Origin: Tubulanus polymorphus
Taxonomy: Eukaryota; Nemertea; Palaeonemertea; Tubulaniformes; Tubulanidae
Assembly: GCF_964204645.1 (NCBI RefSeq)
Contig: NC_134027.1
Location: forward strand, 23,920,485 to 23,984,484
DNA: 64,000 bases
Reading direction: 5' to 3'
Shown: positions 38,327-62,983 of the stretch, one piece after another
How positions within the stretch are numbered: position 1 is the first letter of the stretch
Layout: every line of letters begins with the position of its first letter
The notes under the pieces: model-generated
What the model was told of the DNA's origin: nothing
What the model saw: the letters and a program-made list of their open reading frames with translations, nothing else
Database searches by the model: none
Position numbers and translations under genes: made by a program

Positions 38327-40682
38327 ATGTATTTCGCTGTATTGGTTTGTGTGGTATTCGTTGCTGCTGCAGAAGCGGCCTTTCTGGATCCAGGTAAGAT
38401 GAATTATAATCCACACACCGGACATAACTGTTCAACGTCACTCCCTGGTTTCTCAATAACGGGGTGTTGTTCTAAAAAAAATACCCCAGTCATATTGCTA
38501 GTAATATTTTTCTAAAGGTTTGATTCCAATAACGAATTAAACGTAATACTTTCACCACACTCGCGCAGTAGGGGTGTCGGAGCGGGTCGTTACGACGATG
38601 AGTTGAGTTGAAGTAAGAACATTAGCTAAAGCTGTTCCCCGAACAGCGAGTTCGGGAGTGATACCGGACCCCTGGCAAGATGTCTATCCCGGGTTTTATT
38701 CAGTTATAGTTTTACCGAAAATTTGCCGAAGTACAACGAGCAATTTGATCGGTGCCGCAACTTACCATGTACCTGCGCACCCGATCAAGTGCGGCACGGT
38801 TCATTACTGGTTACTGTGATAGGGTGCCAGTGCCGCGATCGAGGATCTCACGTTACTCGGTCTTCCGCGTTCGATTTCCTATATATCTTAATCAAGACGG
38901 AATGAACTTTCTTTTAAACCAATCATTAATGAAAAACTACACTGATATCTAAGAAAAAAAGAATAATTTATTGTAAATTTGGGTCGTGAGGGGGGGGGCC
39001 TGTGATAATATACAGATTCGGGGGGAGAATTTAGTTCGAAGTGAATTGAAAATGAACTAATTTCGACAACGGAAGAAAAGATGTTTATTTCATTAAACAA
39101 CCACAAGTGTCGGTACATGGAGGCAAGATTTAAAACATAATATGAAACATACGTAACCGTTTACTAAATATAAACGGAATTATTTACAAATATATATATA
39201 TATATAAATATATATATATATATATATATATATATATATATATATATATATATATATATATATATATATATATATATATATATATATATATATATATATA
39301 TATATATATATATATATATATATATATATATATATATATATATATATATATATATATATATATATATATATATATATATATATATATATATATATATATA
39401 TACAAAACAGCAAATGGGAATATCATTCTAGGGCAAAATTTAAGATCCAATTTTTCAGTCCGTCTATTTACAGCCAAAGCTAATACAGAAATTGAATTAT
39501 ATACAGCAAAATGTAGATAAGATATTTATTTCACTCTAACCATAAGAATGGTACGTGGAGGCAAGATTGATTACAAAATATGAAATATAAAAATTTACAA
39601 AACATGAACAGAATTATATACATATATACATACAGACAAAACAAAATAGGGAAATGATTCCATAACAAAATTTAAAGTCTAATCTTCAGTTAAACTATTT
39701 ACAGACAATGCAAGTACAGAGATTGAATTATGTACAGCAAGATATATCACACGTATATACACAATTTACTGAAGGGATTTGTATAAACTTAAACCTAACT
39801 GGATAAATTTAGCTATTTGTGGGGTAGGATTCCTTAATATTTCAAGGTTTCTGGATATACCTAAATGGGTAGAATTATCACGCAGATCACTCAGCAAAGT
39901 GCAATCATAAATGAAGTGAAGCTCATCTCCTACGGTGTTAAAGGTGGGGCACAGTCTTTCACTTCTGTCTATAGGCGTTTTTACGAGCATTCGATTTTGC
40001 GATCGATCGTAGGAACGCATTTACGAGCTCCGATTTTTGCGATCGATTTCACGATCGGACGTTTTTACGAACACGAATTTCCGATTGATTTTTGAAATCG
40101 ACCAACTCGCTCGGCGAGCGATTTGGCGATTTGATTTCCAAGATGGCGGCTACGGGTAGTTCAAAACGATACTATTTTTTTTCTCAACGTCGCCATATTT
40201 ATGTCATGTGATTAGCCAAATCCATCGTCATTTTTACGAACGTTCAATTCGATCGCGCGATCGGAGCAAATCGTTCACGAAATCGATCGCAAAAATCGGA
40301 TGCTCGTAAAAACGGGAGCGTTTAATCGAATTAATTTACCGGTAACTGAGTGCTCGTGCCGCCATCTGGTGGGGTGGCTGGTGTTGCTGCTTCCCCATTT
40401 GTATTTTGCATCTCAGCACATTATGCTGTAAAAATCAAATTTGAAAATAATGCATTAAATTGTTTTTCTTTGGTGAATTTTTTGCTTCTTGACCGATTAC
40501 TTACTTAATTGAACGATGATGATTGGAATCTGTCATATCCTCAATACAGGTGCGTGTACAGTAGAGAGGTTCCCCGATTCTAGTCTCAATGCGGCTACGG
40601 GCAAATACGAGGAGGTGAATGCCTCCTGTACCCAAAAATGTACGTGTGCAAATCGCGACGGTGGAAATGCCATATGCGTAGG
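38327..40682 (+). CDS. Secreted cysteine-rich (VWC-like) protein, copy B; third exon not found
   Basis: Exon 1 (38327-38393) encodes a signal peptide ([11 protein letters not shown].. with an AEA end) and stops at donor CAG|GTAAGA. Exon 2 (40550-40682, acceptor ATACAG) continues in phase 1 with [15 protein letters not shown] and five cysteines, ending at GG|GTAAGC. Exon 2 is 133 bases against 124 in C-F, and its cysteines are spaced C-x3-C-x-C instead of C-x2-C-x-C. I found no exon 3 between 40682 and the next copy; a GPCR relic and repeats occupy the space. It may be a truncated gene or encode a shorter product. Intron 1 (over 2 kb) contains a SINE-like block, an AT microsatellite, a LINE relic and a MITE. 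Confidence 0.65.
38622..38690. repeat. Intronic block shared with copy F
   Basis: CTAAAGCTGTTCCCCGAAC, GCGAGTTCGGGAGTGATACC and GGACCCCTGGCAAG occur here in one piece; in intron 1 of copy F the two halves are at 62467-62486 and 62718-62752, separated by about 230 bp. Confidence 0.75.
38691..39187. other. Intron 1 of copy B, no other feature
   Basis: G-run at 38989-38997; nothing coding recognised. Confidence 0.4.
39188..39402. repeat. AT microsatellite, about 215 bp
   Basis: Near-pure AT dinucleotides with one early AAATATA interruption. Tyr-Ile ORFs on minus are artefacts. Confidence 0.98.
39766..39970 (-). pseudogene. Non-LTR retrotransposon C-terminal relic
   Basis: The minus frame reads [20 protein letters not shown] followed by [14 protein letters not shown]. 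This resembles the Cys/His segment after the reverse-transcriptase domain of LINE ORF2 proteins (R.C..C....DE.HF...C......R). The second cysteine is replaced (CPTF), and the frame is cut at its upstream side by the MITE at 39970. The stop lies at the left end. A dead fragment. Confidence 0.65.
39970..40322. mobile_element. MITE with about 35-bp terminal inverted repeats
   Basis: The left end has GCGTTTTTACGAGCATTCGA and TTTTGCGATCGAT; the reverse complement of the right end has CCGTTTTTACGAGCATCCGA and TTTTTGCGATCGAT. Subterminal GATCG palindromes fill the ends. It sits against the LINE relic. Confidence 0.8.
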
Positions 40683-40814
40683 GTAAGCCTCTATCTAAAA
40701 ATCTGTCTAAAAGAACTTTTCGAAGAAGAATCCGTGAATGTGGTATTAATTCAAAATGTTTAATCATTTTAAATTCAGTTTGTATTTTAGCGACCCGTGT
40801 GCTAAATAGAACCC

Positions 40815-40985
40815 CACGAGTGGATAACAAAAATCTGCGGATGATGCTGATAAACCAGTTTGGTGTCACGTGAAACAACTTATTTGACTCAAAAATTTGA
40901 AGATTTCGATTGTCTATGACGATATTCCAGATACTTTGCAGAAATATACGATAAAAAACGATGAATTCTAGTTAGTTATACTATT
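40815..40985 (+). repeat. Direct repeat right of copy B exon 2 (left of GPCR relic)
   Basis: ATCTGCGGATGATG, CAACTTA, ATTGTCTATGA, ATTCCA and CGA(T/C)GAATTCTAGTTA are shared in order with 42072-42247. The pair brackets the GPCR relic. Confidence 0.7.
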
Positions 40986-40989
40986 TTCT

Positions 40990-61335: not shown

Positions 61336-61699
61336 ACCCAGTTTGAATCGGGTTCTATTCTTCAGCCAGTCTTAGCAGTGCTTGTCTCCACAGAGATCTC
61401 CTTCGCTAAGGTGCTCGTATTGATAGTTTAGTTCAAGTGGTTTGAAAGTATTGAGAAAATGTCGTTCGCATCTTAGTGTGTGTGGTACATCAGACACTAA
61501 GGTTCTCGGTGAAGTTCTATATTAGACATAACTTCATATGTTTGATATGAGCTCACATACAATTTATGAATATATGCAACATTATTCAATAAAAAGTTCC
61601 TTTTCTTCATTATACCAATTGTAAACTTAACAATATTTATTTCATCAAATGATATTTTGCTTAAACACATTTACATTCGAACACTTGAAAACCCGCTCT
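61336..61699. other. Spacer between array and copy F promoter
   Basis: Contains a decayed piece of the 108-bp family (GTTCTCGGTGAAGTTCTA near 61501). No gene. Confidence 0.4.
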
Positions 61700-61766
61700 A
61701 CACGATATAAACGGCAAGTTTACGTGTTTATGTCAGTCGACTCAAACTTGTGGACAGAATTTCATC
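61700..61766 (+). promoter_or_regulatory. Core promoter and 5' leader of copy F
   Basis: A consensus TATAAA at 61706, initiator TCAGTC at 61733-61738 with predicted +1 A61735 (TATA at -29), leader of 32 bases with TTGTGGACAGAATTTCATC. Confidence 0.88.
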
Positions 61767-62983
61767 ATGTATTTAGCTGCATTATTGGTTTGCGTGGTAT
61801 TTGCTGGTGTTGCAGAGGCGGCCCTCAGTCGAGAAATAGGTGAGCCGATACTCGGGTCGATTTCATTTTTACTATTCAATTGCGAATTTGAAATTCATTG
61901 TAAAAATCACGATCACGCTTTGACAGGACACAAAAATTATTTTATAGAAAATAAACGCCAATTTACGCAATCGTAATTGTTATTTTGAAACGCCCCGATT
62001 TTGATGACGTAGTGCACATCCTCTCACACGAATTAGTTAGCAATATATAGAAAAAACCGTTACAAAATTGTTTTTATTCTGTGATAGCTACTATGCGTTG
62101 TCTAAGGGGTTCTCTGTGAGTCGATGTGCATTACGTCATCAACAATGACGTTTCAAGATAACTCTTTTTCTATTTCATAAATTTTCATTTCTTTTTTGAT
62201 GATACATTTGCCCTACGTCAGACTGGGCCAATTTCGGTTATCGGAGTTAGTCGACTATAGTTGAACTAAACGAAACCGAGTGTCAGTAAGTCGTTAGTTC
62301 CGACCTACCTCCAAGATAGCCGACACTGTGAAATACGTTACGACCGAACTATAGTGCGTTCGGTTATTAGTTCCGACCAGCTAGTCGACTAGCTACGAAA
62401 ACCGAAGTTAGCCCCGTTGCTGGACAATTCACATCTTCACCCGTCAAGGGATTCGAACCCACTACGCTAAAGCTGTTCCCCGAACCCCTTGACCTCACGA
62501 GTAGTTGGAGTCGTTACCAGCCGACCAGAATCCGGTCGTACCAATTACAGCGCTCGTAACAAACCGTCAGTAGACTTCTGTTGGTTTTCCCGTTAAATTG
62601 ACCAATCAGCGAACGTTTTACCGAACAAGGAAGTATTTCGCAAATCGATATATGACGTCACGCGCAACAGCGCCAGTAATGAAATCACGCTTCGTGAGGC
62701 CAGGGGGCTGGTGGAAGCGAGTTCGGGAGTGATACCGGACCCCTGGCAAGTGAGGATGGACAATTCAATTCAATTGCCGATATAGTCAAATTCAAATTAC
62801 CTTTATTGATACTTATTTTACGGCATCGAAAATAAACAAAATCGGTATCATGATTTCAGATGGTTGCACTGTTGAGAGGTTCCCTGATTCCAGTCTCAAC
62901 GAGGTTGAAAAGCGTTACGAGGAAAAGACTGATTGCGAACTGTGTTACTGTAAGGATCGCGCCGGAGACGTTACCTGCGAAAC
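61767..62983 (+). CDS. Secreted cysteine-rich (VWC-like) protein, copy F, incomplete at window edge
   Basis: Exon 1 (61767-61839; signal peptide MYLAALLVCVVFAGVAEA) and exon 2 (62860-62983) with [22 protein letters not shown] and VTCET, ending AC|GTAAGT in phase 2 as in copy E. No exon 3 was found in the remaining 1 kb; intron 2 of copy C is 1.2 kb, so exon 3 probably lies beyond 64000. Intron 1 holds two MITEs, a tRNA-like SINE block and the sequence block shared with copy B. Confidence 0.85.
61985..62150. mobile_element. MITE with TGATGACGTA..GTGCACATC ends
   Basis: Left GATTTTGATGACGTAGTGCA then CATCCTCTCACA; right reverse complement TTGATGACGTAATGCACATC then GACTCACA. GACGTAGTGCACA recurs at 63493 and 63613. 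Confidence 0.65.
62224..62415. mobile_element. MITE, about 190 bp, with 30-bp inverted ends
   Basis: Left GGGCCAATTTCGGTTATCGG and AGTTAGTCGACTA; reverse complement of right GGGGCTAACTTCGGTTTTCG and TAGCTAGTCGACT. Confidence 0.7.
62440..62760 (-). repeat. SINE-like block with Pol III B box, shared with copy B intron
   Basis: B box GGTTCGAATCC on minus (plus 62449-62459), then CTAAAGCTGTTCCCCGAAC (62467-62486) and GCGAGTTCGGGAGTGATACC (from 62718), which are adjacent in copy B intron 1. Confidence 0.5.
62760..62822 (-). repeat. Retroposon 3' tail (minus)
   Basis: CAATTCAATTCAATT and TCAAATTCAAATTACCTTTA read on minus as a TAAAGGTAATTTGAATTTGA tail. Confidence 0.5.

Follow-up and report, generated by a model that had tools for sequence, protein, structure and literature searches.

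The 64,000 bp window analysed here (the whole stretch of Tubulanus polymorphus DNA under study, C3:23920485-23984484) carries part of a tandem array of genes for secreted cysteine-rich proteins that appear to form an undescribed family. The strongest point of the locus is diversifying selection on one short segment of these proteins, which a preliminary description made from the letters of the window had missed. Both the family and the selection are supported by the analyses below, and the selected sites cluster most strongly in the nine-residue stretch that separates cysteine 6 from cysteine 7 and immediately beyond it. A search of the genome (268 Mb, 77 contigs), with gene models spliced by GT/AG sites and intron phase, found the cluster to be larger than the five copies and a relic first noted, whose limits had been placed at positions 38327-62983: array 1 does not stop at 62983 but extends about 55 kb beyond the window, a second array lies 2.5 Mb from it (C3:21.36-21.42 Mb), and one further copy, T, is on C4. 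The twelve complete genes are C, D, E, F, H, I, J and M in array 1, P, Q and S in array 2, and T.

All twelve have intact reading frames and, as originally described, a first intron in phase 1 and a second in phase 2; the splice sites are GT/AG. Exon 1 encodes the signal peptide, a hydrophobic start of about 18 residues recognised by reading of the sequence. In J, the exon 2 cysteines are spaced C-x22-CxxCxC-x8-C and those of exon 3 C-x9-C-x9-C-x11-CC-x6-C, followed by a tail cysteine. The mature proteins have 12 cysteines, the number first given, in 11 of the 12 genes and 13 in F; in D, cysteine 8 is lost (C to F), C1 is followed by an additional cysteine and the protein terminates in DCPK instead of CDP. 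The motifs first listed as CxxCxC, YFG, PGCC and IC hold in the complete copies as CxxCxC, Y-[FLY]-G, [GEKD]CC and IC, and the tail after the CC..C segment is indeed present. The FNETxF/CDP ending that was thought to be shared by all is not general; the corresponding letters are FNQS in H, I, J and M, and F[QK]KT and CN in array 2. Every complete gene encodes at least one N-glycosylation motif. One alignment of the family, A1, leaves out H.

Diversifying selection in the mature protein

The copies differ most in the mature part, as had been noticed from the window: the median nonsynonymous divergence (dN) is 0.14 in the signal peptide, 0.26 in exon 2 and 0.48 in exon 3 (62, 61 and 65 usable pairs, respectively, of 66). 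The median whole-gene ratio of nonsynonymous to synonymous divergence (dN/dS) is 0.40, and it reaches 1.30 for P/Q and 1.78 for Q/S. Codon site models M1a and M2a, in our own implementation, were compared on the 12 genes. On the 129 gap-free codons of the main test, which leaves out gapped columns and the codons after J130, twice the log-likelihood difference (2dlnL) is 23.75, with a dN/dS (omega) of 3.4 on 10% of codons, and it is 30.2 when columns with at most 6 gaps are used. The maxima in 49 neutral simulations (two sets, of 17 and 32) were 4.13 and 5.14. Eleven sites have a posterior above 0.5 (21, 47, 50, 68, 70, 72, 73, 77, 80, 104 and 123 in J numbering), and six of these are within residues 68-80. 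Array 1 alone (8 genes) gives p 6e-4 and the P, Q, S, T subset p 0.019, and both list sites within 67-73 as well as site 77.

The same segment stands out among close copies. With the cysteine 6-7 segment picked for these counts after the alignment was viewed, variable residues occupy 4/9 positions in it against 7/143 elsewhere in H, I and J (p 0.0016), and 6/9 against 25/143 in Q/S (p 0.0025). Of the five residues that distinguish I from J, four are 70, 71, 72 and 74. At the nucleotide level, Q and S differ at 28/262 positions in exon 3 and 101/2151 in non-coding sequence (p 2e-4), a more than twofold higher divergence in exon 3.

Several results weigh against this reading. Two five-gene subsets fall short in the site test (p 0.066 and 0.054), and gene conversion between copies, which is outside the site models, could inflate that test. 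The excess of exon 3 over non-coding differences is marginal in H/J, although the trend is the same (8/265 vs 40/3029, p 0.053), and it appears in H/I (p 0.016) and I/J (p 0.076) only once the two regions in which I is 8-12% diverged from H and J, namely upstream sequence and intron 2, are excluded. Counting all non-coding sequence turns the comparison round (H/I, 11/265 vs 146/2538; I/J, 7/265 vs 141/2523), and in the older pairs P/Q, P/S, J/M and C/E divergence is higher in the introns than in exon 3. Gene conversion may explain part of this patchwork.

Incomplete copies and deeper relatives

Five three-exon copies, B through F, had been proposed within the window. Of these, C, D and E have all their exons there and F becomes complete with an exon 3 that lies beyond the window end, but B has exons 1 and 2 only and thus lacks the PGCC, IC and FNET motifs attributed to it. 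It is one of four B-type copies in the genome (B, G1, G2 and G3, all in array 1), whose exon 2 has the variant spacing CxxxCxC with an intact frame and donor. No exon 3 was found for B-type copies by tblastn or the family exon-3 hidden Markov model (HMM), nor in the B-to-C interval by either method, the HMM being run there with filters off; the lone exon-3 HMM match between B and C, in a frame starting at 42535, is at chance level (E 0.43). A downstream stretch shared by B and G3 was rejected as an exon 3, since its similarity extends over all frames and looks non-coding. About 1.3 kb 3' of B exon 2 (40733-42014) is absent from the corresponding place in G3, and the two minus-strand frames within this 1.3 kb, 40990-41499 and 41576-41902, have no Pfam match. 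Exon 1 of G3 was not found. The relic proposed earlier stands as an exon-1-like piece near 33947, and further exon-1-only pieces along array 1 are K, Lx (no ATG start) and N (no donor). H, I and J are recent duplicates, in agreement with the first impression of a locally expanding extracellular set.

The first genome search also recovered an outlying exon 3, U, on C1, for which the 7.4 kb upstream yielded neither exon 1 nor exon 2. A search with U gave V (C1) and W (C8), and one with W gave X1 (C4) and X2 and X3 (C11), making five deeper relatives; searches with V and X2 added no firm member, and a weak match is at C9:16063871 (E 0.18). By reading, V and W share the phase 1 exon 2 acceptor and the phase 2 exon 2/3 junction with the array genes, so the arrays are probably one branch of an old family at scattered sites. 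V has a competing donor, exon 1 was found for neither V nor W, and V exon 3 (in locus L045, C1:26851500-26854500) runs into a GPQGKGPQGN repeat tail. Just 3' of V are two further cysteine-rich frames of a different kind. No relatives were found in viral contigs or phage records.

Known families and possible function

The 11 array-type spliced proteins have no significant match in Pfam and none at E 1 in NCBIfam; the Pfam scan of the deeper relatives, which covered V, W, X1 and X2 and left out U and X3, gave no significant match either, and PDB searches with C, the family alignment and X2 returned chance-level matches only. Candidates set aside were three unrelated Pfam families hit by one member each (E 0.11-0.99) and DIM for V (E 1), all at chance level, and RanBP2/Nup153 zinc fingers in the PDB (best E 0.07), taken as chance matches around CxxCxC. 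No description of the family was found in the literature searched, most subscription journals being outside its coverage. The initial opinion that no named family has this layout therefore holds in these libraries, from which the family is absent.

We give a little better than an even chance to the explanation that these are undescribed, secreted, disulfide-rich recognition proteins with a variable segment that act at an immune or reproductive interface, a target suggested by the pattern of change in the genes. Exon 1 would supply the signal peptide, exon 2 a compact CxxCxC domain, and exon 3 a second cysteine-rich domain and the tail. The disulfide frame may present the cysteine 6-7 segment as a binding surface, because residues 69 and 71 are each hydrophobic in 11 of the 12 genes and 68, 70 and 72 vary, as in a strand with one exposed side. 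Separate copies would bind separate or shifting partners, perhaps the surface or an enzyme of a microbe, or a gamete or seminal protein of the mating partner, and duplication and selection would keep the repertoire in flux, in the way reported for beta-microseminoproteins. Against this stand the listing of residues 67 and 69 by the P, Q, S, T subset, contrary to the one-exposed-side pattern, a structure prediction of exon 3 alone with a predicted local distance difference test score (pLDDT) of 45, and the origin of all known members in this single genome, with no relative from another species. Fast-evolving secreted arrays mark conflict of animals with microbes or with the other sex, and here the anatomy is clean, with a conserved leader and frame and one short segment changing most. 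Near-identical recent copies that differ disproportionately in that segment offer a direct test of what it binds, in a multi-copy secreted animal family that is outside the Pfam and PDB copies searched.

Among known families, the gene layout, and the layout only, fits beta-microseminoproteins (MSMB/MSMP/PSP94; PF05825) better than VWC. MSMB is a two-domain beta fold with a C37-C73 interdomain disulfide. Like the array genes it has a signal peptide, a CxxCxC N-domain exon and a separate C-domain exon, tandem copies and fast-changing coding exons. In all 12 family genes the introns on either side of the middle exon are in phase 1 and phase 2, and the same phases are computed for MSMB from exon lengths and the position of the ATG: MSMB exon 1 ends with the ATG as its last 3 nt (PMC3268785) and marmoset MSMB exons 2 and 3 each measure 106 bp (PMC2746217). 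The second intron of the family falls two residues after cysteine 5. If a 20-residue signal peptide is assumed, that of MSMB falls two residues after C50. Human MSMB reads C-x18-CxxCxC-x6-CC in the middle exon (family, C-x22-CxxCxC-x8-C) and C-x8-C-x13-C later (family, C-x9-C-x11-C). Eight family cysteines overlay the ten-cysteine MSMB pattern, by eye and post hoc; C2 and one of the CC pair of MSMB have no counterpart, and the family has four extra cysteines and a longer tail. C2-C50 is a disulfide in MSMB, and the joint absence of C2 and one CC cysteine is consistent with this. Published accounts also place MSMB genes in tandem groups and related proteins in marsupial egg coats and squid egg capsules (PMC3268785), report translated exons more dissimilar than introns in marmoset MSMB (PMC2746217), and count 11 tandem PSP94-like genes in a sea cucumber.

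A diverged beta-microseminoprotein branch with a role in reproductive or mucosal recognition (seminal, egg-coat or pheromone) would account for these parallels, but we regard it as unlikely, if the most serious of the alternatives, for there is no detectable similarity beyond the cysteines. Pfam PSP94 matches 0/11 spliced proteins, and an HMM of three PDB sequences of MSMB scores the family at a mean of -2.9 bits, where shuffles that kept cysteine positions average -3.1 (95% at 2.1). Alignment of family and MSMB profiles by hhalign, with the deep family alignment specified below for VWC, gives p 0.015, equalled by 5/60 column shuffles, and the cysteine-anchored similarity to MSMB (10 of the 12 genes, leaving out C and D) is reached by 22/300 shuffles, with 27-39/300 for its parts. 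By sequence, membership is not supported. The single PSP94 match in the genome, which barely makes the cut-off (22.0 bits, E 0.05), is by reading a VWC domain; VWC and beta-microseminoprotein models recognise each other, and neither recovers the family. Layout is weaker evidence than sequence because phases of this kind occur widely and the overlay of cysteines is post hoc. A fuller form of the recognition-protein explanation, in which an old 12-cysteine family related in layout to beta-microseminoproteins has one branch that grew into a repertoire of two arrays, its proteins sharing a single hypervariable segment for recognition in a conflict with microbe or mate, is less likely than not.

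Canonical protease inhibitors typically have a cysteine-flanked variable segment within a disulfide-rich framework. The family resembles them in this, and the segment might be a reactive-site loop; no inhibitor family is among the Pfam results and the segment has no conserved P1-like residue, which makes this a distinctly poor candidate. Structural or adhesive proteins of mucus, egg case or shell, with relaxed constraint in the variable segment, would agree with secretion, N-glycosylation motifs in 12/12 genes, a common core promoter, the repeat at the end of V, and an exon 3 no faster than all non-coding sequence in H/I and I/J. Relaxed constraint alone would give neither sites with omega 3.4 beside conserved cysteines nor an exon 3 faster than introns, as in Q/S, and we judge this improbable.

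The VWC-like core seen at first is unsupported outside the CxxCxC stretch. The cysteines do follow the order C..CxxCxC..C..C..C..CC..C, and single-domain VWC (SVWC/Vago; PF15430) proteins are also small and secreted. They share the CC..C ending with the family. The family differs from VWC in an extra cysteine before CC, an extra tail cysteine, longer spacing and a phase 2 intron that splits the core after cysteine 5, unlike the one intron-split VWC examined (L038, intron just after CxC). Pfam VWC (PF00093) matches none of the 11 spliced members at E 10, and its 53 places in the genome include none in the arrays, the search being exon by exon and the family core intron-split. An unfiltered HMM of the genome's own VWC domains gives the 12 family sequences a mean of -1.7 bits, at the level of 600 cysteine-preserving shuffles (mean -2.1, 95% at 4.2). 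Profile alignment to these domains is weak, around CxxCxC (hhalign, p 0.0085-0.035), and is equalled by 7/60 column shuffles of a deep alignment of C, E, F, J, M, P, S, T, V, W, X2, U and X1 (H, I, D, Q and X3 left out). SVWC proteins are described as secreted immune proteins with eight cysteines (PMC13115929), against 12-13 in the family; the SVWC model has no match in the family, and its best genome match (E 0.44) is elsewhere and below the cut-off. VWC or single-VWC immune proteins with an altered tail are accordingly disfavoured as very improbable, and membership of either family is not supported. Canonical VWC domains also form a cluster of their own at C4:20.46-20.93 Mb (L026, L027, L032-L035), where several are almost identical.

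Upstream sequences, neighbouring genes and coordinates

The sequence 5' of the ATG is conserved among copies, with TATA and TCAGTC-like initiator elements and a 32-35 nt leader. Spacing from TATA to initiator is 29-34 nt in 14 of the 15 models with exon 1 (a count that leaves out K, Lx and N), the exception being G2, which has no TATA match. The shared core promoter possibly reflects regulated, perhaps abundant, expression. A 39-bp minisatellite, GATCCAGTTCCACAGTTGTGTGGGTTTAATTCGACTCTG, lies about 250-800 bp upstream in the same orientation, as judged by pattern matching, in 8 of these 15 models (B, E, F, H, I, J, M and T), with about 49 units before F. Its stretches are at 7347-7672, 10012-10262, 10927-11134, 37601-38017, 54697-54889 and 59298-61227; it is also found away from copies, and the array 2 stretch has no pattern match.

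Table 1. Coordinates of family features in the window
Feature	Position	Strand	Remarks
Exon-1-like relic	33947..34054	+	tblastn E 0.05; exon-1 HMM E 5.5e-7, frame starting 33905
Copy B exon 1	38327..38393	+	signal peptide, phase-1 donor
Copy B exon 2	40550..40682	+	CxxxCxC spacing, no downstream exon 3 found
Copy C exon 1	45932..46004	+	
Copy C exon 2	46189..46312	+	C1-C5
Copy C exon 3	47479..47719	+	C6-C12 and stop
Copy D exon 3	49660..49888	-	C8 to F, tail DCPK
Copy D exon 2	50426..50549	-	
Copy D exon 1	51064..51133	-	
Core promoter of E	55121..55185	+	TATA element, TCAGTC initiator 31 nt on, short leader
Copy E exon 1	55186..55252	+	
Copy E exon 2	55891..56014	+	
Copy E exon 3	56630..56888	+	
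Variable segment of E	56634..56660	+	nine residues, cysteine 6 to 7, start of exon 3
Copy F exon 1	61767..61839	+	
Copy F exon 2	62860..62983	+	exon 3 at C3:23985014-23985272

Between D and E is an intronless frame of 329 amino acids (52628-53617, + strand) of the rhodopsin-type G protein-coupled receptor (GPCR) class (7tm_1, E 1.4e-15), and array 2 is adjoined by distant GPCR-like frames (22-33% identity). An open frame of 505 amino acids at 32329-33846 (+ strand) matches the Condensation domain (E 1.3e-9) and AATase, and is a nonribosomal peptide synthetase-like or PapA-like acyltransferase in an animal genome.

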